From Gramella sp. MT6 (GTDB taxonomy: Bacteria > Bacteroidota > Bacteroidia > Flavobacteriales > Flavobacteriaceae): a stretch of DNA of 64,000 bases. The stretch's first letter is position 1. Each line of letters opens with the position of its first letter. This document shows, one piece after another, positions 9,716-30,303 of the stretch. The notes under the pieces were generated by a model. The model saw only the letters and a list, made by a program, of their open reading frames with translations, was not told the origin of the DNA and ran no database searches. The position numbers were made by a program, and so were the translations under genes. The stretch is taken from the NCBI RefSeq assembly GCF_019357415.1, contig NZ_CP048410.1:2451001-2515000 (forward strand). Direction: 5' to 3'.

Positions 9716-10510
9716 ATGGATAAGAATTTAGATATAGCAATCAGGGCAGCAATTGAAGCTGGAAATGTAATCATGGAGATTTATAATAGCGAGGATTTTC
9801 AAATCCGGAATAAAGAGGACGATTCTCCACTTACAAAAGCCGATCTTAAAGCTAATGCCGTAATTAACTCCTTTTTAAAGCCAACTAAAATTCCAATCAT
9901 TAGTGAGGAAAACAAGCAACTTGAGTACGAGGAACGTAAAGACTGGAAAGACTGTTGGATTGTAGACCCACTTGATGGAACCAAGGAATTTATTAAACGT
10001 AATGGAGAATTCACTGTCAATATTGCTTACATAAGGGATAATTTACCTGTATTCGGGGTAATTTACGTGCCTGCTAAAAAAACAGTTTATTTTTCAGCAG
10101 GTAGTTCCTCCTGGAAACAGATTTTAAATGATACAGATCCGGCTAAATTTAACCAGGTAGAGTCCATAATGATTTCTCCTGAAAAAAGTGAAGGGGAAAT
10201 TCGGGTTGTGGGAAGCAGATCTCATATGAATCAGGATACTAAAGACTTTATTGCTAACTTACAGGAAAAATCGACCGACAAAATTAAAGTGGTTTCAAAG
10301 GGAAGTTCTTTAAAATTTTGTTTGGTCGCCGAGGGAAACGCTGATGTTTATCCTCGCTTTGCACCAACAATGGAGTGGGATACAGCCGCTGGACAGGCAA
10401 TTTGTAAAGCAGTAGGACTTAAGGTTATTGATAAAGAGACTGGGCAGGAAATGAAATATAACCGGGAAAACCTGTTAAATAACCATTTTTCTGTATCCGC
10501 AATTGAGTAA
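9716..10510 (+). CDS. cysQ: 3'(2'),5'-bisphosphate nucleotidase CysQ
   Basis: 264-residue Li+-sensitive inositol-monophosphatase-fold phosphatase that hydrolyses PAP to AMP and can act on PAPS. Metal ligands are visible: E64-E65, D84-P-L-D87-G-T and a late EWDTAAG motif. PAP is the inhibitory by-product of sulfotransferases, so its place beside cysC, cysD and cysN, in a locus with two sulfotransferases, indicates PAP clearance during sulfation. The downstream DUF2061 gene overlaps its end by 8 bp. Confidence 0.92.
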   Translation: MDKNLDIAIRAAIEAGNVIMEIYNSEDFQIRNKEDDSPLTKADLKANAVINSFLKPTKIPIISEENKQLEYEERKDWKDCWIVDPLDGTKEFIKRNGEFTVNIAYIRDNLPVFGVIYVPAKKTVYFSAGSSSWKQILNDTDPAKFNQVESIMISPEKSEGEIRVVGSRSHMNQDTKDFIANLQEKSTDKIKVVSKGSSLKFCLVAEGNADVYPRFAPTMEWDTAAGQAICKAVGLKVIDKETGQEMKYNRENLLNNHFSVSAIE

Positions 10511-10964
10511 GACGTATAAAAGACATATCGCCAAAACCATAACCTGGAGGGTTGTTGGTACTATAGATACTATAGTCCTTTCCTGGATTGTTACAGGTAA
10601 CCCCTATACAGGTTTAAAGATTGGTTTTTCGGAAGTGATTACTAAGATGTTCTTGTATTACCTTCATGAAAGGATTTGGTTTAATATCAAGGCCGGAGTT
10701 ACTAGAAATGGCGATAGCCGAAAGCGGCATATTGCCAAAACAATAACTTGGCGTTGCATTGGAACTATAGATACGATGTTGCTTGCCTGGTGGATATCTG
10801 GTGATCCACTTACCGGATTGAAAATTGGAGGAATTGAATTGGTGACTAAAATGATACTTTACTACTTGCATGAAAGGGCATGGTATAAATACGATTACGG
10901 CCTTCAACAAAGGAGAAGCAGAGAATTAAAGAAAGAGAATGAATTAAGTTATACCGATGAATAA
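10503..10964 (+). CDS. Tandem DUF2061 membrane protein
   Basis: 153 residues made of two copies of a DUF2061 unit at about 6-60 and 74-128. Each starts KRHIAKTITWR and ends YYLHER.W, with two hydrophobic stretches per copy. The start is TTG at 10503, overlapping the cysQ stop. DUF2061 proteins are often found inside sulfate-activation operons of Bacteroidota, but their role is not established; a membrane function linked to sulfate or PAPS metabolism is a guess. The cysC gene overlaps its 3' end by 8 bp. Confidence 0.8.
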   Translation: MSKTYKRHIAKTITWRVVGTIDTIVLSWIVTGNPYTGLKIGFSEVITKMFLYYLHERIWFNIKAGVTRNGDSRKRHIAKTITWRCIGTIDTMLLAWWISGDPLTGLKIGGIELVTKMILYYLHERAWYKYDYGLQQRRSRELKKENELSYTDE

Positions 10965-11559
10965 TATTGTTCCACATACCTTTCAGGTAGAGCGAAAAGA
11001 CCGCAATAAACTTAAAGGTCATAAATCGTTTGTCGTTTGGTTTACAGGTTTATCAGGATCAGGTAAATCAACACTTGCTAATATGGTTGAGAAACGATTG
11101 TATGATAATGGGGTCCATACATTTACTCTTGACGGTGACAATGTTCGCGGTGGTCTAAATAATAATCTTGGGTTTAGCCGTGAAGATCGTAGTGAGAACC
11201 TTCGCAGGATAGCCGAAGTAGCTAAATTATTTATTGATTCAGGAAGTCTTGTTATAGGATCTTTTATATCACCTCTAAAGTCTGATCGGGATTCTGTAAA
11301 AAAGATAATTGGCGAAAATGATTTTGTTGAAATTTATGTGAATACGCCAATTGAAATATGCGAATCCAGGGATGTTAAGGGGCTGTATAAGAAGGCTAGA
11401 GCAGGGGAGATTAAAAATTTTACCGGTATTGATGCTCCTTATGAAGAACCTGAATTTCCAGATATAGAAGTAAAAACGAACCTTGAGGAAGCTGATGCTT
11501 CCGTAAAAAGGATATTCGATTATTTAAAGAATAAATTAGAAATAAAAAGTAATGAGTAA
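10957..11559 (+). CDS. cysC: Adenylyl-sulfate kinase CysC
   Basis: 200-residue APS kinase that phosphorylates APS to PAPS. The P-loop GLSGSGKS is at residues 31-38. The APS-binding DGDNVRGGLN and the lid region near RDVKGLYKKARAG are present. It is a stand-alone enzyme, not fused to CysN. PAPS is the donor for sulfotransferases. No PAPS reductase or sulfite reductase gene is in the window, which favours sulfation over assimilation as the job of this copy. Confidence 0.95.
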   Translation: MNNIVPHTFQVERKDRNKLKGHKSFVVWFTGLSGSGKSTLANMVEKRLYDNGVHTFTLDGDNVRGGLNNNLGFSREDRSENLRRIAEVAKLFIDSGSLVIGSFISPLKSDRDSVKKIIGENDFVEIYVNTPIEICESRDVKGLYKKARAGEIKNFTGIDAPYEEPEFPDIEVKTNLEEADASVKRIFDYLKNKLEIKSNE

Positions 11560-12457
11560 ATATTATCTGAATTATCTTGATGAGCTGGAGTCGGAAGCGA
11601 TTTTTATTTTACGTGAAGTTTGGGCTCAGTTTGAGAACCCAGTCATCCTGTTTTCAGGAGGGAAGGATTCTATTTTAGTAACTCATCTAGCAAAAAAAGC
11701 TTTTTACCCAAGTAAAATTCCATTTCCTTTAATGCATGTAGATACGGGACATAATTTTCCTGAAACTATCGAATTCCGGGATGACTTGATTGAGAGTCTT
11801 GGAGCAAAATTAATCGTAGGTTCTGTTCAAGAGTCTATCGATAATGGTAGAGTTGCTGAAGAAAAAGGAAAAAATGCTACAAGAAATGCCCTTCAAATTA
11901 CCACACTCCTTGATGCTATTGAAGCTAATAAGGTAGACTGTGCAATTGGTGGTGGAAGAAGAGATGAAGAAAAAGCACGGGCTAAAGAAAGATTTTTTTC
12001 TCACCGAAACGATTTTGGAGAGTGGGATCCTAAAAATCAGCGTCCAGAATTATGGAACCTGTTGAATGGTAAACATTATGAAGGTGAGCACTTTAGGGCT
12101 TTTCCAATTAGTAATTGGACTGAAATGGATGTTTGGAATTATATTAAAAGAGAAAATATCAGTATTCCATCTCTTTACTTTGCTCATGAAAGAGAGGTAG
12201 TTTTTAGGAACAATTCATGGATACCTGTTTCTGAATATTTAAAACTCGAAAAAGGTGAAAAAATTGAAAAGAAGAAAATTAGATTTAGGACTCTTGGAGA
12301 TATAACTATTACCGGAGGAATTGAATCTGATGCCGACACGCTTGATAAAATTGCTGATGAAGTTTCCACTATGAGAAAGACAGAGCGAGGAGATCGTAGT
12401 GATGATAAACGTTCAGAAACAGCGATGGAAGACCGTAAAAAACAGGGATATTTTTAG
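11552..12457 (+). CDS. cysD: Sulfate adenylyltransferase small subunit CysD
   Basis: 301-residue PP-loop ATP sulfurylase subunit. SGGKDS at residues 35-40 binds ATP pyrophosphate, and GGGRRDEEKAR and a C-terminal RSETAMEDRKKQGYF block are canonical. It makes APS from sulfate and ATP, driven by the GTPase CysN encoded next. The start overlaps cysC by 8 bp. Confidence 0.96.
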   Translation: MSKYYLNYLDELESEAIFILREVWAQFENPVILFSGGKDSILVTHLAKKAFYPSKIPFPLMHVDTGHNFPETIEFRDDLIESLGAKLIVGSVQESIDNGRVAEEKGKNATRNALQITTLLDAIEANKVDCAIGGGRRDEEKARAKERFFSHRNDFGEWDPKNQRPELWNLLNGKHYEGEHFRAFPISNWTEMDVWNYIKRENISIPSLYFAHEREVVFRNNSWIPVSEYLKLEKGEKIEKKKIRFRTLGDITITGGIESDADTLDKIADEVSTMRKTERGDRSDDKRSETAMEDRKKQGYF

Positions 12458-12500
12458 GAGAAATAAACTTGATTTAAGAATAAAAACTTTAGCAAAGATA

Positions 12501-13757
12501 ATGGAGATTAATAATAATCAATTACTAAGATTTACAACGGCAGGAAGTGTTGACGATGGAAAAAGTACACTAATTGGTCGTTTACTGTTTGATTCTAAAT
12601 CAATTTTTGAAGATCAGTTGGAATCGGTGACCAATACCAGTGCAAAAAAAGGTCATGACGGAGTAGATTTAGCGCTTTTCACTGATGGTTTAAAAGATGA
12701 AAGAGAACAGGGAATCACTATAGATGTAGCATACAGGTATTTCACAACTCCAAAGAGAAAATTTATTATTGCTGATACTCCTGGACATATTCAATATACT
12801 CGTAATATGGTGACTGGAGCATCGACAGCCAACGCGGCCCTAATATTGATCGATGCACGACATGGAGTTATTGAGCAGACTAAGCGACATTCATTCATAG
12901 CTTCTTTATTAAATATTCCTCATCTAATAGTATGTATTAATAAGATGGATTTGGTAGACTTCTCAGAAGAAAGGTATAATGAAATTATCGGACAATTTGA
13001 GGAATTTTCTTCTAAACTGTTGGTTAAGGATGTCCGTTTCGTACCAATGAGTGCGCTCCTTGGTGATAATGTTGTAAACCGCTCACAGAACATGGGCTGG
13101 TACGGCGGTGGAACGCTTCTTAGTATCTTGGAAACTTTACATATTAGTAGTGATATTAATAAAATTGATGCTAGATTTCCTGTACAAACGGTCCTACGAC
13201 CACAGAGTAATGATCATAGAGATTATAGAGGATATGCGGGAAGAGTTGCTAGTGGGATATATAGAAAGGGAGATGAAATTGCTGTTTTACCTTCAGGATT
13301 CACCTCTAGAATAAAATCTATCAACGCAGGTGAAAATGAAATTGATGAGGCTTTTGCTCCTATGTCTATTGCAATAACCCTTGAAGACGATATTGATGTT
13401 AGTAGAGGTGATATGATTGTCAAAAGGAACAATCAGCCAGAAGGGGAACAGGAGTTTGATGTTATGTTATGTTGGTTAAATAACGATGCTGCAAAGCCAA
13501 GAGCTAAATATACGGTGATGCATGCTTCTAATGAACAAAGAGCCATGATCAAAGACATAATTTATAAGATAGATATAAATACTTATAACAGGAATACAGA
13601 AGATAAAGCTCTTTCTATGAACGATATTGCTCGGGTTAGGATTAGAACTACACATAGATTGATGCTAGACTCATATAGAGACAACCGCAATACAGGTAGC
13701 ATTATATTAATAGATGAGAATACCAATGAAACCGTCGCTGCGGGAATGATAATTTAA
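12501..13757 (+). CDS. cysN: Sulfate adenylyltransferase large subunit CysN (GTPase)
   Basis: 418 residues from ATG 12501. A longer reading from 12399 would overlap cysD and lacks family similarity before this Met. G-domain motifs are GSVDDGKST at 15-23, the DTPGH box and NKMD. Elongation-factor-like beta-barrel domains follow. It couples GTP hydrolysis to APS formation by CysD. There is no C-terminal APS kinase fusion, in line with the separate cysC. It is followed 4 bp later by rfbB, so sulfate activation and nucleotide-sugar genes share one operon. Confidence 0.95.
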   Translation: MEINNNQLLRFTTAGSVDDGKSTLIGRLLFDSKSIFEDQLESVTNTSAKKGHDGVDLALFTDGLKDEREQGITIDVAYRYFTTPKRKFIIADTPGHIQYTRNMVTGASTANAALILIDARHGVIEQTKRHSFIASLLNIPHLIVCINKMDLVDFSEERYNEIIGQFEEFSSKLLVKDVRFVPMSALLGDNVVNRSQNMGWYGGGTLLSILETLHISSDINKIDARFPVQTVLRPQSNDHRDYRGYAGRVASGIYRKGDEIAVLPSGFTSRIKSINAGENEIDEAFAPMSIAITLEDDIDVSRGDMIVKRNNQPEGEQEFDVMLCWLNNDAAKPRAKYTVMHASNEQRAMIKDIIYKIDINTYNRNTEDKALSMNDIARVRIRTTHRLMLDSYRDNRNTGSIILIDENTNETVAAGMII

Positions 13758-17158: not shown

Positions 17159-17845
17159 ATGAATGAACTTTCTTTTTTTTTTAAAATTTTCAGGCATAGA
17201 TATTTAAATAAATATCTACTAAAAAATCGACAGAAAATTTTTTGTATAGGCAAGAATAAAACCGGTACTACTTCTTTGCGTCAGGCTTTCTTAGAGTTTG
17301 GATTGGTTGTTGGATACCAAAGAGATGCTGAAAAATTATTAAAGTCTTATATAAATAACGATTTTAACGAAATCATAAAGTATTGTAAAACTGCGCAGGC
17401 ATTCCAAGATATTCCTTTTAGTTTGCCAAAAACATATAAAGTTTTAGATAGTGAATTTCCTGATGCTAAATTTATTTTAACAATTAGGGATAATCCTGAT
17501 CAGTGGTACTCTTCTGCAATAAGGTTCTACACTAAAAAATTTGGTAGCGGAAATATTCCAACTAAGACTGATTTACAGAATGCAGAGTATGTTTATAAAG
17601 GCTGGATGTGGGAAGAAAATAGAGAAACTTACGATACTTCAGAAAATGATATTTACAATAAAGAATTGATGGTAAAACAGTATATATCATATAACGCAGA
17701 AGTGATTTCCTATTTCAGCGACCGGCCTGATAAGCTTTTAATTATAAATGTATCGGAGAAAAACTCATACCAGAAATTAGCTAAATTTCTCAATGTTCAA
17801 ACTGACAAGGTGAATTTTCCTTGGAAAAATAAAACGGATGAATAA
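17159..17845 (+). CDS. PAPS-dependent sulfotransferase family protein
   Basis: 228 residues. A 5'-phosphosulfate-binding loop, GKNKTGTTSL, is at 31-40, and a 3'-phosphate-binding segment, FILTIRDNPDQWYSSA, at 105-120; this pair defines cytosolic-type sulfotransferases. The closest general type appears to be the Sulfotransfer_4-like group. It probably transfers sulfate from PAPS to a sugar of the repeat unit on the cytoplasmic side. Ten consecutive T residues lie at codons 5-8 (17173-17182), a possible slippage site. The aminotransferase gene overlaps the 3' end by 8 bp. Confidence 0.85.
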   Translation: MNELSFFFKIFRHRYLNKYLLKNRQKIFCIGKNKTGTTSLRQAFLEFGLVVGYQRDAEKLLKSYINNDFNEIIKYCKTAQAFQDIPFSLPKTYKVLDSEFPDAKFILTIRDNPDQWYSSAIRFYTKKFGSGNIPTKTDLQNAEYVYKGWMWEENRETYDTSENDIYNKELMVKQYISYNAEVISYFSDRPDKLLIINVSEKNSYQKLAKFLNVQTDKVNFPWKNKTDE

Positions 17846-24565: not shown

Positions 24566-25597
24566 ATGGGAAGAAAATTAATAATTCATTTGGGATTTCC
24601 TAAAACAGGTACAAGCTACCTGCAGAAAAATATATTTCCTAAAATGGCCGGCATTAATTTTATTGGTAGGCGGGATAATTTCTATTCTCAAGAAGCTAAA
24701 GGATTAAAAGATTTTGTGACTTTTTTATTATTTATTCCCGAAGATGCATTTTTGGATAGATTATCGTCAATGAAGGGTGTTTTGTTAAATATTAATAAAG
24801 CACATTTTAATTATTCTAAATCAGAGAAACTACCTATTCTTTTATCAGATGAGGCTCTTATTTTTAGAACAATTGATCCTTTTAATGTCCGATGGCATGG
24901 AAAATATAGTGCCTCCATCGATAGATTGTTTAGGAGGCTAAAAATTTTCGTCGAATTTTGCGATTTTGATTTGAAATTAATTTTGACTCTCAGAAACCAG
25001 GCCGATTTAATTCATTCTGTGTATAGTGAGCGATATAATGTTTATAGGAATATTGCAGATATTAATACTTTTTCAAAATATCTTTCAGCAATTCTGAACT
25101 CAAAATTTTATGATTATGGAATGTCAAATTTACAATATGATCGATTAATAGATAAGATTAAGTTTTTTTTCGAAAATGATAGATTGTTAGTCTTAAAATA
25201 TGAACAAATGAAAAAAGATCCTTTGCAGTTTTACGAAAGGCTATTGGGATTTTTACCATCAGATAGTACAGTTAGCGAACTGTCATCGGAAATAAACTTT
25301 AAAGCGGAAAATAAACGCGAAATTGGCTTTAATAAAAAGATAGCGAACTTGGGCTATAAACTGCCAAGAGTACTAAAAAAATTAAATTTATTTACTGTAA
25401 GGTTATTTATTAAGTCAGGTTTGACTAGAGAAAGTACAGTTGAAGAATATATATTAAACAATGGTTTTTGGTTTCAAAAGTATAAGATAATTAATATGAC
25501 TCAATCGCAACGTAGTTTGATCAATGGAACCTTTTACGAAAGCAATAAATCATTAGCACAAGCTTATAATGAATTTTTAGATTATACAAATGGATAA
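24566..25597 (+). CDS. Second PAPS-dependent sulfotransferase family protein
   Basis: 343 residues. The 5'-phosphosulfate loop GFPKTGTSYLQ is at 10-20 and the 3'-phosphate site LKLILTLRNQADLIHSVYS at 136-154, with KYEQM further on. It is clearly different in length and sequence from the sulfotransferase at 17159, so a different target position or sugar is likely. It overlaps the aldolase gene by 8 bp, tying sulfation to the CMP-sugar cassette. Confidence 0.82.
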   Translation: MGRKLIIHLGFPKTGTSYLQKNIFPKMAGINFIGRRDNFYSQEAKGLKDFVTFLLFIPEDAFLDRLSSMKGVLLNINKAHFNYSKSEKLPILLSDEALIFRTIDPFNVRWHGKYSASIDRLFRRLKIFVEFCDFDLKLILTLRNQADLIHSVYSERYNVYRNIADINTFSKYLSAILNSKFYDYGMSNLQYDRLIDKIKFFFENDRLLVLKYEQMKKDPLQFYERLLGFLPSDSTVSELSSEINFKAENKREIGFNKKIANLGYKLPRVLKKLNLFTVRLFIKSGLTRESTVEEYILNNGFWFQKYKIINMTQSQRSLINGTFYESNKSLAQAYNEFLDYTNG

Positions 25598-27134
25598 GAC
25601 TTTTAAAATATTAGATTGCACATTAAGAGATGGAGGATATTATACAAATTGGGATTTTGATAAGAATTTAGTAAAAACCTATTTTAGCGCTTTTAACAAC
25701 CTTCCGGTTGATTATTTAGAATTGGGTTACAGATCTAATCCTATGAAAAATTATTTAGGTGAATATTTTTATTGTCCTCAATATGTACTGGAAGAATCCA
25801 AAGCTTTAAGTGATAAAAAGTTAGTAATAATACTGAATGAAAAGGATGTAAGAGCAGAACATGTTCCTGATTTATTAGGTCCCTGCATTGGGTTTATCAC
25901 CTTGGTAAGAATTGCAATAGATCCAAAAAATTTTAAAAGAGCATTATCTCTAGCAGAAGCCGTAAAAAAATTAGGATTTGAAGTTGGATTTAATGTTATG
26001 TATATGTCTGCTTGGGAATCAGAAAAAGATTTCTTGAGTCAGATAAAAGAAGTAGATGGTATTGCAGATTATTTCTATATGGTTGATTCTTTTGGAGGAG
26101 TTTACCCAGATGATGTAAGGAGAACTTTTGATATTGTAAGAAATCAAACTAACACTGAAATTGGTTTTCATGGTCATAACAACCTTCAATTAGCTTTGAT
26201 AAATACTCTGACAGCAATTAATTGCGGTGCTAATATTGTGGACGCAACAGTAACTGGAATGGGCAGAGGGGCAGGAAATCTTCAAACTGAACTTTTATTA
26301 ACAGCATTAAATGCTAAAGAGGGTTTAGAACTAGACTTTAATTCCTTGAGCAGAGTTGTTGGTCCATTCGCCGAAATGCAAAAAGATTATGAATGGGGTA
26401 CTAATTTACCATATATGGTATCTGGAGCAAATTCGCTGCCACAGAAGGAAGTGATGTCATGGGTTACAAAAAGATTTTATTCCTTAAATAGTATTATTCG
26501 TGCTTTATCTAATCAATCCAAAGGATTAAAAGATAATATTGATTTAAAAAATCTTAATGAGAACAAGAAATATAAATCAGCATTAATCATTGGGGGAGGT
26601 CCTACCGGTAAAATGCATTCGAAGGCTATTAAAGAGTTTATAAAGAATCACGAAGAATTATGCGTAATCCATGTAAGTTCAAAAAATGCCCAGGAGTATA
26701 AGGATGTAAAGAATCTGCAAATTCATTGTCTGGCAGGAAATGAGGGTCATAGATTAGAGGAAAGCTATGAAAATATAAACATCAAAGACAAATTGGTTAT
26801 ATTACCTCCCTACCCCAGAACTATGGGTACTTATATTCCTAAAAGTTTGGAACCTGTTGCATTTCAATTAAAAGATATAAGTTTTACTGATAAATATTAC
26901 GAGTCAGTAACATCATTAGCTATTGAAACAGCATTACATTTGGGAGTAGAGAATTTCTATTTTGCAGGTTATGATGGTTATAATGAAGATATTAAGCCTC
27001 AGGAATTAGAATTGTTCAATGAGAATGAATATATTATTGAAAGTTTAAAAAAGAACTCCAACCTTTCTGTAAGCTCAATAACACCAACTTTATACGAAAG
27101 TTTAGAATCGAAATCAGTCTTCTCCTTAATATAA
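25590..27134 (+). CDS. HMGL/DmpG-type aldolase fused to a C-terminal Rossmann-like domain
   Basis: 514 residues in two parts. Residues 1-300 form a DRE-TIM (HMGL-like) barrel: LDCTLRDGG at 8-16, the metal-binding HGH at 194-196, and GMGRGAGN at 223-230. This family includes 4-hydroxy-2-oxovalerate aldolases that join pyruvate to aldehydes. Residues 329-514 form a second domain starting ALIIGGGPTGKMHS and carrying an ALHLGVENFYFAGYDGY block that recalls GT29/GT42 or DUF115-like proteins. With the following CMP transferase and phosphatase genes it probably makes a 3-deoxy-2-keto sugar acid. Substrate and the role of the second domain are unknown. Confidence 0.75.
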   Translation: MDKTFKILDCTLRDGGYYTNWDFDKNLVKTYFSAFNNLPVDYLELGYRSNPMKNYLGEYFYCPQYVLEESKALSDKKLVIILNEKDVRAEHVPDLLGPCIGFITLVRIAIDPKNFKRALSLAEAVKKLGFEVGFNVMYMSAWESEKDFLSQIKEVDGIADYFYMVDSFGGVYPDDVRRTFDIVRNQTNTEIGFHGHNNLQLALINTLTAINCGANIVDATVTGMGRGAGNLQTELLLTALNAKEGLELDFNSLSRVVGPFAEMQKDYEWGTNLPYMVSGANSLPQKEVMSWVTKRFYSLNSIIRALSNQSKGLKDNIDLKNLNENKKYKSALIIGGGPTGKMHSKAIKEFIKNHEELCVIHVSSKNAQEYKDVKNLQIHCLAGNEGHRLEESYENINIKDKLVILPPYPRTMGTYIPKSLEPVAFQLKDISFTDKYYESVTSLAIETALHLGVENFYFAGYDGYNEDIKPQELELFNENEYIIESLKKNSNLSVSSITPTLYESLESKSVFSLI

Positions 27135-27138
27135 CTAT

Positions 27139-27822
27139 ATGTCTATAGCGGTATTTCTACCAACACGAAAAGGAAGTGAGCGTGTTAAAAATAAAAATAC
27201 CAGAAAATTTGCTGAATTTAAAGGCGGTTTACTGGAGTTAAAATTGAAACAATTAAATGGTTTGGATGTTGACGAAGTTATTTTGTCTACAAACGATGAG
27301 GAATCAATTACTATAGCCAAATCTTTTGAATCTGAATTTAAAAATCTGGTAATTAAGCCCAGGCCTGATCATTTAGCAGGAAGTTCTACTAAATTAATAG
27401 ATCTAATTAAATATGTACCTAAAATTACAAATTGCGAACATATATTATGGACACATGTAACTTCTCCAATGGTCGAGAAGGAAATTTATGCCGAAAGTAT
27501 TGAAGAATACAAACAGGCTTTGGAAAATGGCTATGATTCCTTAATGTCTGTAATTCCTTTTCAAAATTTTTTATGGAGCCCTAAGGAGAATGATTTGGTC
27601 AATAGAGAAGGAGATTTGAGATGGCCCAGAACTCAGGATCTTACTAAGCTCTACGAGATTAATAGTGCAATTTTTATAACACCTAGATATATTTATGAAA
27701 ATAATTTTGATAGAGTAGGGAAAAAACCATTTTTGTACGAAATGAATAAATTGAATTCAATGGATATTGACTGGGAAGATGATTTCAAAATAGCTGAAGC
27801 CGTATATGAAAGATTTAAGTAA
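27139..27822 (+). CDS. CMP-sugar acid synthetase (acylneuraminate cytidylyltransferase family)
   Basis: 227-residue GT-A-like nucleotidyltransferase. FLPTRKGSERVKNKN at 6-20 is the CTP-binding motif of NeuA/KdsB-type enzymes. STNDEE, RPDHLAG and late NSMDIDWEDDF blocks are also typical. It should activate a 2-keto sugar acid with CTP. No NeuB, PseI or LegI (PEP-dependent synthase) gene is in the window; the adjacent aldolase is the only candidate source of its substrate. The phosphatase gene overlaps by 17 bp. Confidence 0.85.
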   Translation: MSIAVFLPTRKGSERVKNKNTRKFAEFKGGLLELKLKQLNGLDVDEVILSTNDEESITIAKSFESEFKNLVIKPRPDHLAGSSTKLIDLIKYVPKITNCEHILWTHVTSPMVEKEIYAESIEEYKQALENGYDSLMSVIPFQNFLWSPKENDLVNREGDLRWPRTQDLTKLYEINSAIFITPRYIYENNFDRVGKKPFLYEMNKLNSMDIDWEDDFKIAEAVYERFK

Positions 27823-28441
27823 TTATCAAAACATACTATGGGATTTTGACGGCGTACTAATGGATAGTATGCCTGTAAGAAATAGAGGTTTTGAAATTGT
27901 ATTAAAAAATTACCCAAATAAAGAAGTTGAACAATTAATGCGTTTTCATTTAAATAATGGAGGCCTTTCTAGATTTGTTAAATTCAGATATTTTTTTGAA
28001 AATATCCGCAATGAAGATATATCTGAAAATCAAATTAAATTTTTCGCTGGGAAATTTTCTGAAGTGATGAGAAATGAATTATTGAATGAAAAGCTATTAA
28101 TTTCAGATACTGTTGAATTCGTAAAGAGATTTCATGAAAAATTCAATATGCATATAGTTTCGGGTTCAGACCAAAAAGAGCTTCGCTTTATTTGTAAAAA
28201 ATTAAACCTAAAGTCTTATTTTCTATCTATTAACGGATCACCAACACCAAAAAAGGAATTAGTGTCAATTCTGATGGGAAAGCATGACTATCAAAAGGAC
28301 AAGACTGTTTTGATTGGTGATTCAATAAATGATTATGAGGCAGCAGAATATAATGGAATTGAATTTCGTGGTTATAATAATAAAAATCTTAAGAGGCTCG
28401 AGGCCGGTTATATAGAAAGTTTTTCAGATGGAAAAGATTAA
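27806..28441 (+). CDS. HAD-superfamily phosphatase in the CMP-sugar cassette
   Basis: 211 residues. Motif I DFDGVLMD at 13-20 (nucleophile D13, acid D15), motif II S119 in VSGSD, motif III lysine near K149, and motif IV GDSIND at 171-176. The cap is helical (subfamily I type). Overlap with both neighbours suggests it dephosphorylates an intermediate of the same pathway, as KdsC or NeuA-linked phosphatases do. The substrate is unknown. Confidence 0.85.
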   Translation: MKDLSNYQNILWDFDGVLMDSMPVRNRGFEIVLKNYPNKEVEQLMRFHLNNGGLSRFVKFRYFFENIRNEDISENQIKFFAGKFSEVMRNELLNEKLLISDTVEFVKRFHEKFNMHIVSGSDQKELRFICKKLNLKSYFLSINGSPTPKKELVSILMGKHDYQKDKTVLIGDSINDYEAAEYNGIEFRGYNNKNLKRLEAGYIESFSDGKD

Positions 28442-29159
28442 TGAATCTATTAAAGGATTAGTTTACACCCTAAGGAATTCTAAAAAATTTGAACCCAACA
28501 AAATATTTAAAAATAGGAGGGTAGCCATAGTTGGTCCTGCAGATTCTGCTTTTGATAATGCATACGGAAGTTATATAGATGATTTTGATTATGTAATTAG
28601 AATCAACAAGACACCTTCAAGTTGGAATCCGGAAAATGAAAAATATATTGGTCGTAAAACTGACATATGGTTTCACTCTTTTTTTGAAAATAGAGATAGT
28701 GGTGGGGGCCCTTTAGATCCTTATATTATAAAAAATATGAATATAGAATATTTGGTCAATCCGCGTTCATCTTTTAAAGCATATAGAAGAACTTTTAATT
28801 TCTATAGAAAATACCAGGAAAATATTTCAGTTTATCACTTGGAGTCTAAAGTTTACAAAGATTTATTATATAAATTTCCAAAAAAACTTAGACCTACTGT
28901 AGGTTTTGTAGCTTTATATTCAGCCTTAAAATCAGAATGTGAAGAATTATATATAACAGGCTACACCTTTTTCAAAACACCGTATGCTAAGGGATATAGA
29001 GATCACTTATTAGATTTAGATAAAAATAAAATGCACTTCAAAAGTCAAGGTATCCATGATGCTGATCTGGAGTATCAAATTTTCAAATCCACTATTCAAA
29101 ATCACAATTGTAAAATTTTAAATATAGATAATAAGTTGAATGAAATTTTAAATTCTTAA
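28428..29159 (+). CDS. GT29-like (sialyltransferase-family) glycosyltransferase
   Basis: 243 residues. A sialylmotif-L-like block VGPADS..(35-40)..DDFDYVIRIN (51-60), a sialylmotif-S-like block TVGFVALYSAL with CEELYITGY, and a late HDADLE histidine region follow the order found in GT29 enzymes. GT29 uses CMP-sialic acid, so this protein is the expected user of the CMP-linked product of the three upstream genes, which it overlaps by 14 bp. It may instead use CMP-Kdo-like donors. Confidence 0.72.
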   Translation: MEKINESIKGLVYTLRNSKKFEPNKIFKNRRVAIVGPADSAFDNAYGSYIDDFDYVIRINKTPSSWNPENEKYIGRKTDIWFHSFFENRDSGGGPLDPYIIKNMNIEYLVNPRSSFKAYRRTFNFYRKYQENISVYHLESKVYKDLLYKFPKKLRPTVGFVALYSALKSECEELYITGYTFFKTPYAKGYRDHLLDLDKNKMHFKSQGIHDADLEYQIFKSTIQNHNCKILNIDNKLNEILNS

Positions 29160-29163
29160 TAAC

Positions 29164-30303
29164 ATGGAAAATAATATTCAACTTTTATATTATTCAAATG
29201 CATTGGTAGCTTCTCATGGTGGACGATTACATTCTGAGGCTTTCTGTGAAGAAATTGAAAAGGATGACCGGATTCAGAAATTGATTAGGTTTCCAAAATC
29301 TAATAACCAAAAAAATATAGGCTCAAATTCGAAAATTCGAAAAGCCTTAAAACTAATACCTGCCTTACAAATTTTCTTTTTTTATAGAAGAAATAAATTA
29401 AGTTACTTGGAAATTGAGAAGGAAATTGAAAAACATAAAATTAATATTATTCATATTAGGCTTGATTCTAACTTCCTAATAATTGAGAAAATAAAAGAGA
29501 AATATCCTGATATTTTAATAACTACAGAAGTGAACGCATCACCCTTCGAAGAAAACTTTAAGAATATTCTTTTTAAATCATATTTCAAAAAATTAGAAAG
29601 GAGTAGTTTAAATTTTTCAGATGCAAATTTTTTTGTCTCAAATTATTTAAGAAAACAGATTCTCAGTAAACCTAATTTTAATAGAGATTATGTCGTACCA
29701 AATGGAGTCGATGATAAATTTTTTAATATAGAAAAGACTCCAAAGAAGAATAAGGAGGTAATTTTTGGTTATATAGGTACTCTTGACTTTCATAAAAACT
29801 TGAAGGTTTTAATTGATGCTTTTAAACAAGTTCAATCAGAAAAGACAAATACCAAATTGTTGATTATAGGAGATGGGCCAATGATGATGGACCTTAAAGC
29901 CTATGTTAACAAAACACAACTAGTAAATAATGTAATATTTCAAGGTTGGGTGAAACATGATGAAATTGTGTTTTTTCTTCAAAAATTTGATATTGCTATT
30001 CATCATAGTGCTCAACCATATATGAGTCCTCTGAAATTATTTGAATATATGGCATCAGGGTTGCCAGTTATTGGTCCTGACACTCCTGCCGTTCGCGAGA
30101 TTTTTGATGGTAATGACTTAGTTTTTACAAATGGTGAAAAGAATGATTTAGCGAACAAAATGTTATATCTCTTGGATAACCCGATGTTGAGGGAAGAAAT
30201 CGGGAAGAATTGCAAAAATAAGGTTAAAGCTAATTATAGATGGAAACATAATGCACAAAGGATTATAAATGTAATGTTAGATAAAATTGAAAATAGAAAT
30301 TAA
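29164..30303 (+). CDS. Glycosyltransferase family 4
   Basis: 379-residue GT-B enzyme. The C-terminal domain carries GYIGTLDFHKN, GDGPMM and the donor-site SPLKLFEYMASGLPV; the EX7E motif is replaced by the K-L-F-E-Y-M form used by many GT4 members. It starts 4 bp after the GT29-like gene. The first of four GT4 genes in a row. Confidence 0.9.
   Translation: MENNIQLLYYSNALVASHGGRLHSEAFCEEIEKDDRIQKLIRFPKSNNQKNIGSNSKIRKALKLIPALQIFFFYRRNKLSYLEIEKEIEKHKINIIHIRLDSNFLIIEKIKEKYPDILITTEVNASPFEENFKNILFKSYFKKLERSSLNFSDANFFVSNYLRKQILSKPNFNRDYVVPNGVDDKFFNIEKTPKKNKEVIFGYIGTLDFHKNLKVLIDAFKQVQSEKTNTKLLIIGDGPMMMDLKAYVNKTQLVNNVIFQGWVKHDEIVFFLQKFDIAIHHSAQPYMSPLKLFEYMASGLPVIGPDTPAVREIFDGNDLVFTNGEKNDLANKMLYLLDNPMLREEIGKNCKNKVKANYRWKHNAQRIINVMLDKIENRN

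Follow-up and report, generated by a model that had tools for sequence, protein, structure and literature searches.

A conserved cassette of aldolase, CMP-transferase and phosphatase genes as a candidate route to CMP-activated ulosonic acids

The routes to the cytidine monophosphate (CMP)-activated forms of sialic, pseudaminic and legionaminic acids and of Kdo (3-deoxy-D-manno-octulosonic acid) run through NeuB or KdsA, a phosphatase, an activating enzyme (NeuA, PseF or KdsB) and a transferase. To our knowledge, every established route to a CMP-ulosonic acid forms the keto acid with a phosphoenolpyruvate (PEP)-dependent synthase. Here we describe a gene cassette of Gramella sp. MT6 that encodes an aldolase-type protein (ALD), a CMP-transferase, a HAD phosphatase and a GT29-like transferase (Table 1). 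The DNA analyzed, called the window, is a stretch of 64,000 nucleotides (NZ_CP048410.1, positions 2451001-2515000), and the coordinates of its open reading frames (ORFs) are relative to it. An earlier note on this DNA had reported four overlapping or nearly abutting genes; we found them at those positions, on the same strand and all four above their Pfam cut-offs. We consider it probable that ALD, the CMP-transferase and the HAD enzyme make up a stand-alone pathway leading to a CMP-activated 3-deoxy-2-ketulosonic acid, in which a pyruvate-dependent class II aldolase replaces the PEP-dependent synthase. The proposal is based on gene architecture, conservation, predicted folds, motifs, the swapping of partners and the lack of NeuB in some of the genomes. 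No literature on this cassette was found in open-licence PubMed Central, judged from titles and the beginnings of abstracts.

Species genomes were scanned with ALD peptide patterns, and the best 80 of 165 relatives were used together with the window, a set that leans towards the window's relatives. Local profile searches divided it into 63 loci with a long ALD and 18 with a short ALD. The long loci include a near-identical pair (L052 and L053), one cut by a contig end (L058) and a very divergent one (L082), and all were counted. A CMP-transferase gene was located no more than 3 kb from ALD in 61 of the 63 long loci; the two others are L061 and L058, and in the latter the gene runs off the end of the contig. 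A HAD gene was present within 8 kb in 52 long loci and within 3 kb in 50. ALD, the CMP-transferase and HAD were the sole genes that recurred at a high rate among the neighbour clusters, and the order ALD, CMP-transferase, HAD is recurrent in Bacteroidota. The pair of ALD and CMP-transferase also occurs in Malaciobacter (L060), Methylobacterium (L062), another alphaproteobacterium (L063), Paenibacillus (L064) and a Pelagibacteraceae cell (L066); HAD lies on either side of the pair at L060 and L062 to L064, and none was seen at L066.

ALD, the CMP-transferase and PF07388 were also searched for in 296 genomes drawn independently from the phylum (Bacteroidota). This draw contained nine ALD copies in eight genomes, one of them the window's genome. 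All eight copies outside the window had a CMP-transferase and HAD in the cluster; three lie on contigs that agree with those of L021, L028 and L050 in length and place, and five are new. The four CMP-transferase matches above 190 bits all adjoin ALD, and just one of eight weaker matches (70-95 bits) was beside it (G089:C5). Since the linkage of ALD, CMP-transferase and HAD is conserved, chance is excluded: the cassette is real, conserved and spread over several phyla.

The short ALDs (about 316 amino acids, mostly from Omnitrophota metagenome-assembled genomes) lack the C-terminal domain. None of the 18 had a CMP-transferase or HAD, against the 61 of 63 long ALDs with a CMP-transferase, which indicates that the CMP-transferase occurs along with the C-terminal domain. 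An Eda-type KDPG/KHG (2-keto-3-deoxy-6-phosphogluconate/2-keto-4-hydroxyglutarate) aldolase gene adjoined 12 of the 18 short ALDs (L069-L072, L075, L079-L081, L084-L087), and these relatives may be catabolic. A catabolic role was set aside for the long family, whose recurrent neighbours, read by eye, are polysaccharide genes and whose CMP-transferase linkage is that given above. An HpcH/HpaI-type aldolase was found within 8 kb at seven of the 63 long loci. Such a pyruvate aldolase is also inserted at L098 and L099, two cassettes of one chromosome (genome G147) with about 20 kb between them.

The search of Pfam gave ALD 83.5 bits with HMGL-like PF00682 (gathering cut-off 29). Its barrel carries the RDG and HxH metal site, and it belongs to the HMGL-like/DRE-TIM metallolyase superfamily, in line with the HMGL-type aldolase of the earlier note. 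Among enzymes of known function, the nearest in sequence and fold are the 4-hydroxy-2-oxovalerate aldolases, for which ALD remained below the NCBIfam cut-offs (TIGR03217, 96.3 vs. 286 bits; NF006049, 110.4 vs. 229 bits). By-eye reading recognised no aldehyde dehydrogenase partner among the recurrent ALD neighbour clusters.

The earlier description of ALD had missed a second domain at the C-terminus, which has a predicted Maf/GT42 fold. This domain scored 20.7 bits with PF01973, under the cut-off of 34.6, and 15 of 29 rows matched at E up to 0.1; its best PDB profile match was not significant (E 0.16). No His is invariant among 29 rows. This lack suggests that the domain is most likely a feedback sensor, which would bind the CMP-sugar product.

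The CMP-transferase of the window belongs to its superfamily (CTP_transf_3, PF02348, cut-off 22.6) and contains the nucleotide-binding motifs RKGS..NKN and DIDW..DF. Its score with the PseF equivalog was 62.4 bits, below 205.7 (NCBIfam), so it is not identified as PseF. Two kinds of CMP-transferase occur beside ALD: 37 rows are of the window's type (PseF/NeuA-like) and 25 of the 62 are KdsB-like. The type switches at least 13 times on a quick ALD tree, in which 21 of 59 inner branches are open and L008 was labelled window-type. The locus L008 (7995-13146) is a single cassette in which each of the two CMP-transferase types occurs, along with a pair of GT29-like genes. The one KdsB-like form tested, from L017, was above two KdsB subfamily cut-offs and below the kdsB equivalog cut-off (NCBIfam). 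Compared with the KdsB of the window's genome, the KdsB-like cassette forms have RQVCIY for KHIGIY and EDIE for EKIE, at positions that we take to be substrate-side; the P-loop and QGDEP are retained.

The HAD protein has the full phosphatase motif set (DxDGV, VSGSD, K and GDSxND), kept in more than 90% of 52 homologues. Its best-scoring models were phosphoglycolate phosphatase and beta-phosphoglucomutase, not KdsC.

A whole-genome search revealed no NeuB or DAHP (3-deoxy-D-arabino-heptulosonate 7-phosphate)-synthase-type gene within the window, all matches lying outside positions 2451001-2515000. A NeuB-dependent pathway would have its synthase in the module, and the cassette has none. The window's genome had four PF02348 matches: the cassette's own, a NeuA-like gene at 64996, KdsB at 2770299, and one at 2577029, which was set aside by its sequence and neighbours as presumably a molybdenum-cofactor-type protein. 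The NeuA-like gene shares a cluster with NeuB (69168). This separate cluster (L105, 58000-77900) also holds one glycosyltransferase-like gene and one asparagine-synthase-like gene.

From the 62 non-window long loci, 35 cassette genomes (about 169 Mb, mostly named isolates) were chosen, and their contig numbers were paired with named contigs through coordinates. Ten of them had no NeuB above the cut-off: nine had no match at all, and in one a match under the cut-off coincided with its KdsA-size gene. Each of these ten genomes, among them that of L017 (G008, complete by its title), had exactly two PF02348 matches above the cut-off, one at the cassette. The co-occurrence without NeuB that the earlier note expected is found in part of the genomes.

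That the partner transferases are of the sialyltransferase type was borne out by Pfam and by profiles. The GT29-like protein of the window is, on its sequence, a sialyltransferase-type transferase: it clears the Glyco_transf_29 cut-off of 23 and aligns with the solved alpha-2,3-sialyltransferase 2wml (31.8 bits). A His-x4-Glu motif (HDADLE in the window), presumably sialylmotif VS of GT29, was present in eight of nine GT29-like rows, L045 being the exception. Within 8 kb of the 63 long ALDs we found GT29-like genes at 8 loci, polysialyltransferase/GT52-like genes at 16 and MptE-like genes at 14; at least one sialyltransferase-type gene was present at 37 loci, and the families were spot-checked in Pfam. 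The MptE profiles were iterated and absorbed ALD's own C-terminal domain, and the neighbour matches were therefore filtered by length and score. Thirteen MptE-like proteins matched GT42 sialyltransferases in a profile search (E 4.4e-11). Of the four families that the earlier note expected together, the first three co-occur across many genomes, and GT29 did not hold as a fixed fourth member.

All six GT29 genes of the 35 cassette genomes are located inside cassette loci. The same genomes had 15 PF07388 matches: 11 within the loci, one of these (G026) also near NeuB, three within 8 kb of NeuB, and one near neither. A match in G016 was not counted as cassette-linked, because its position disagrees with the cassette's place on the contig. 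Among 395 genomes of the phylum, the window's own GT29 was the sole match above the cut-off, with two weaker ones below it. In the 296-genome draw, PF07388 was above the cut-off in nine genomes, that is, in 4 of the 8 with ALD and in 5 of the 288 others (p 2.7e-5).

We propose the following order of reactions. The metal-dependent TIM barrel of ALD would add the enolate of pyruvate to a phosphorylated aldose of central metabolism, and pyruvate plus an aldose phosphate is the best reading of its substrates. The acceptor aldehyde is probably such a phosphorylated sugar because ALD, the CMP-transferase and HAD alone recur at a high rate. The HAD-IA enzyme would then remove the phosphate. The CMP-transferase, by its family membership, likely activates the free ulosonate, and the neighbouring sialyltransferase-type enzyme, GT29-like in the window, likely incorporates it into a surface polysaccharide. 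The product is possibly an undescribed sugar; we name none, since the KDG (2-keto-3-deoxygluconate)-kinase-like neighbours at two loci, the HpcH/HpaI aldolase and the KdsB-like enzymes point different ways. A bolder version, to which we give somewhat less than an even chance, is a second, synthase-independent route in several phyla: an aldolase fused to a Maf/sialyltransferase-fold domain would build an undescribed keto sugar, sense or channel its CMP-product and feed GT29, polysialyltransferase-like or GT42-like enzymes.

Several observations weigh against the aldolase route. Eleven of the 63 long loci lack HAD within 8 kb, one of them being L058, cut by the contig end. At L044 (10252-11280) and L065 (9474-10583), neither of which has HAD, a PfkB gene resembling KDG/KDGal (2-keto-3-deoxygalactonate) kinases takes HAD's usual place and follows the CMP-transferase ORF, with an overlap at the end of the latter, so that simple phosphate removal fits poorly there. 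The HpcH/HpaI aldolase stands between ALD and the CMP-transferase at L011, L013, L028, L039, L052 and L053, and ALD may thus not be the sole former of the C-C bond; the CMP-transferase is divergent in five of these six loci, L039 excepted. No sialyltransferase-type gene was detected by profiles within 8 kb at 26 of the 63 long loci (a separate search adds one at L060), and in the draw PF07388 was inside the ALD locus in just two of the nine genomes (p 0.02 when counted so). ALD is also not an ordinary 4-hydroxy-2-oxovalerate aldolase: its scores fall far below the cut-offs, and Tyr17 is found in 62 of 62 rows where DmpG has His21, which we take to be the catalytic residue. With the catalytic His of the family replaced, the mechanism or the reaction of ALD may differ. 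The superfamily offers other reactions on a 2-oxo acid, such as Claisen-type condensation, decarboxylation or carboxyl transfer. We consider these very unlikely, because the nearest characterized relatives of ALD are those given above and no partner for a CoA (coenzyme A)-acid, biotin or a dehydrogenase was recognised by eye among the recurrent neighbour clusters.

The main alternative is a conventional ulosonic acid as the substrate of the CMP-transferase: either Kdo supplied by KdsA, or a nonulosonic acid supplied by a NeuB elsewhere in the genome. The aldolase would then serve a different purpose, such as forming an acidic substituent or removing surplus keto sugar. The statement that no PEP-dependent synthase is present holds for the window and fails for its genome, which has the NeuB at 69168 and a KdsA-type gene at 2000091, as well as an AroG-type gene at 285907. 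NeuB occurs within 9.6 kb of ALD at nine of the 63 long loci, and at L045 (7097-9548) a NeuB-like gene abuts ALD; this locus has a GT29-like gene and a CMP-transferase of the KdsB-like kind, and no HAD was seen. The ten genomes without NeuB have KdsA-size frames (272-290 amino acids) in nine cases and one match in a 565-amino-acid frame in G034, and KdsA could supply Kdo to the KdsB-like forms, which make up the 25 rows already mentioned and reach subfamily level in L017. We nevertheless regard this alternative as unlikely. It must account for the 10 of 35 cassette genomes without NeuB, for the second CMP-transferase that these ten have apart from the cassette's, and for the NeuA-like gene and KdsB that are likewise present in the window's genome. 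The KdsB-like forms are consistently altered, their P-loop and QGDEP kept, and the linkage of ALD and CMP-transferase at 61 of 63 loci is left unexplained. A sub-case of the aldolase route, whose odds overlap with it, is that aldol chemistry makes a known sugar such as Kdo, Kdn (2-keto-3-deoxynononic acid) or a short KDG-type acid. The KdsB-like enzymes and the kinase-like genes at L044 and L065 speak for it; we find it doubtful, given the consistent changes at presumed substrate-side positions and the KdsA-size genes for ordinary Kdo already present in nine of the ten genomes tested.

The cassette is placed inside a large polysaccharide locus with a flippase-type synthesis protein (15700), an export protein (47970) and a chain-length/tyrosine-kinase-type protein (48749), together with glycosyltransferases, sulfotransferases and a sulfate-activation set (Pfam). 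This set (9716-13757), which we take to comprise inositol-phosphatase/CysQ-like, adenosine-phosphosulfate kinase, CysD-like and CysN-like genes, and two sulfotransferases (17159-17845 and the one in Table 1) indicate that the polysaccharide is probably sulfated. Homologues of the sulfotransferase next to ALD were present at two of the 81 loci, the window being one of these.

Table 1. Genes and domains of the cassette and its flanks (positions in the window)
Feature	Position	Strand	Remarks
ALD, 514 aa, two-domain	25590..27134	+	Residues 1-313, HMGL-like TIM barrel, pyruvate-type aldolase; residues 325-514, Maf/GT42-fold
ALD C-terminal Maf/GT42-fold domain, last 190 residues	26562..27131	+	Proposed to bind CMP-sugar (regulatory or transfer)
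CMP-transferase, NeuA/PseF/KdsB superfamily, own subfamily, 227 aa	27139..27822	+	PF02348, 37.6 bits
HAD-IA phosphatase, 211 aa	27806..28441	+	HAD_2 PF13419, 60.5 bits (cut-off 23.8)
GT29-like sialyltransferase-type transferase, 243 aa, variable cassette partner	28428..29159	+	PF00777, 61.5 bits
Sulfotransferase, outside the conserved cassette	24566..25597	+	PF00685, 41.6 bits; 8-base overlap with ALD start
GT4-type glycosyltransferase, same direction after the cassette	29164..30303	+	PF00534, 104.8 bits

If the proposed route is correct, CMP-activated ulosonic acids have a second, widespread biosynthetic logic, and the cassette marks surface polysaccharides that likely hold overlooked acidic sugars. 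It would also suggest what bacterial GT29 enzymes and an orphan family with a crystal structure may do. That family is represented by PDB 3dxi, the N-terminal domain of the putative aldolase BVU_2661 of Bacteroides vulgatus; the N-terminal domain alone was solved, and the title gives no pathway. The 4-hydroxy-2-oxovalerate aldolases (1nvm, 4jn6, 4lrs, 8ih7) are about 20% identical to ALD, which differs from them by its Tyr and its C-terminal domain. This domain shares its predicted fold with the Maf flagellin glycosyltransferase (5mu5) and the GT42 sialyltransferases CstII and Cst-I, whereas in the present protein an aldolase is fused to it and none of its His residues is invariant. Bacterial proteins with GT29 sialylmotifs, previously unreported, were described in passages of a study whose trees gave no function prediction in Bacteria (PMC5811610). 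Those passages do not mention an aldolase cassette, whereas the GT29 genes of our 35 cassette genomes are all cassette-borne. With respect to the CMP-sialic, CMP-pseudaminic, CMP-legionaminic and CMP-Kdo routes, the cassette differs in that an HMGL-like aldolase stands where they have a PEP-dependent synthase and in that its HAD protein does not score best with the KdsC model. It has in common with them the CMP-transferase superfamily and the sialyltransferase-type families, and the steps proposed for it are alike: formation of a C-C bond with a three-carbon unit, dephosphorylation, activation by cytidine triphosphate and transfer.

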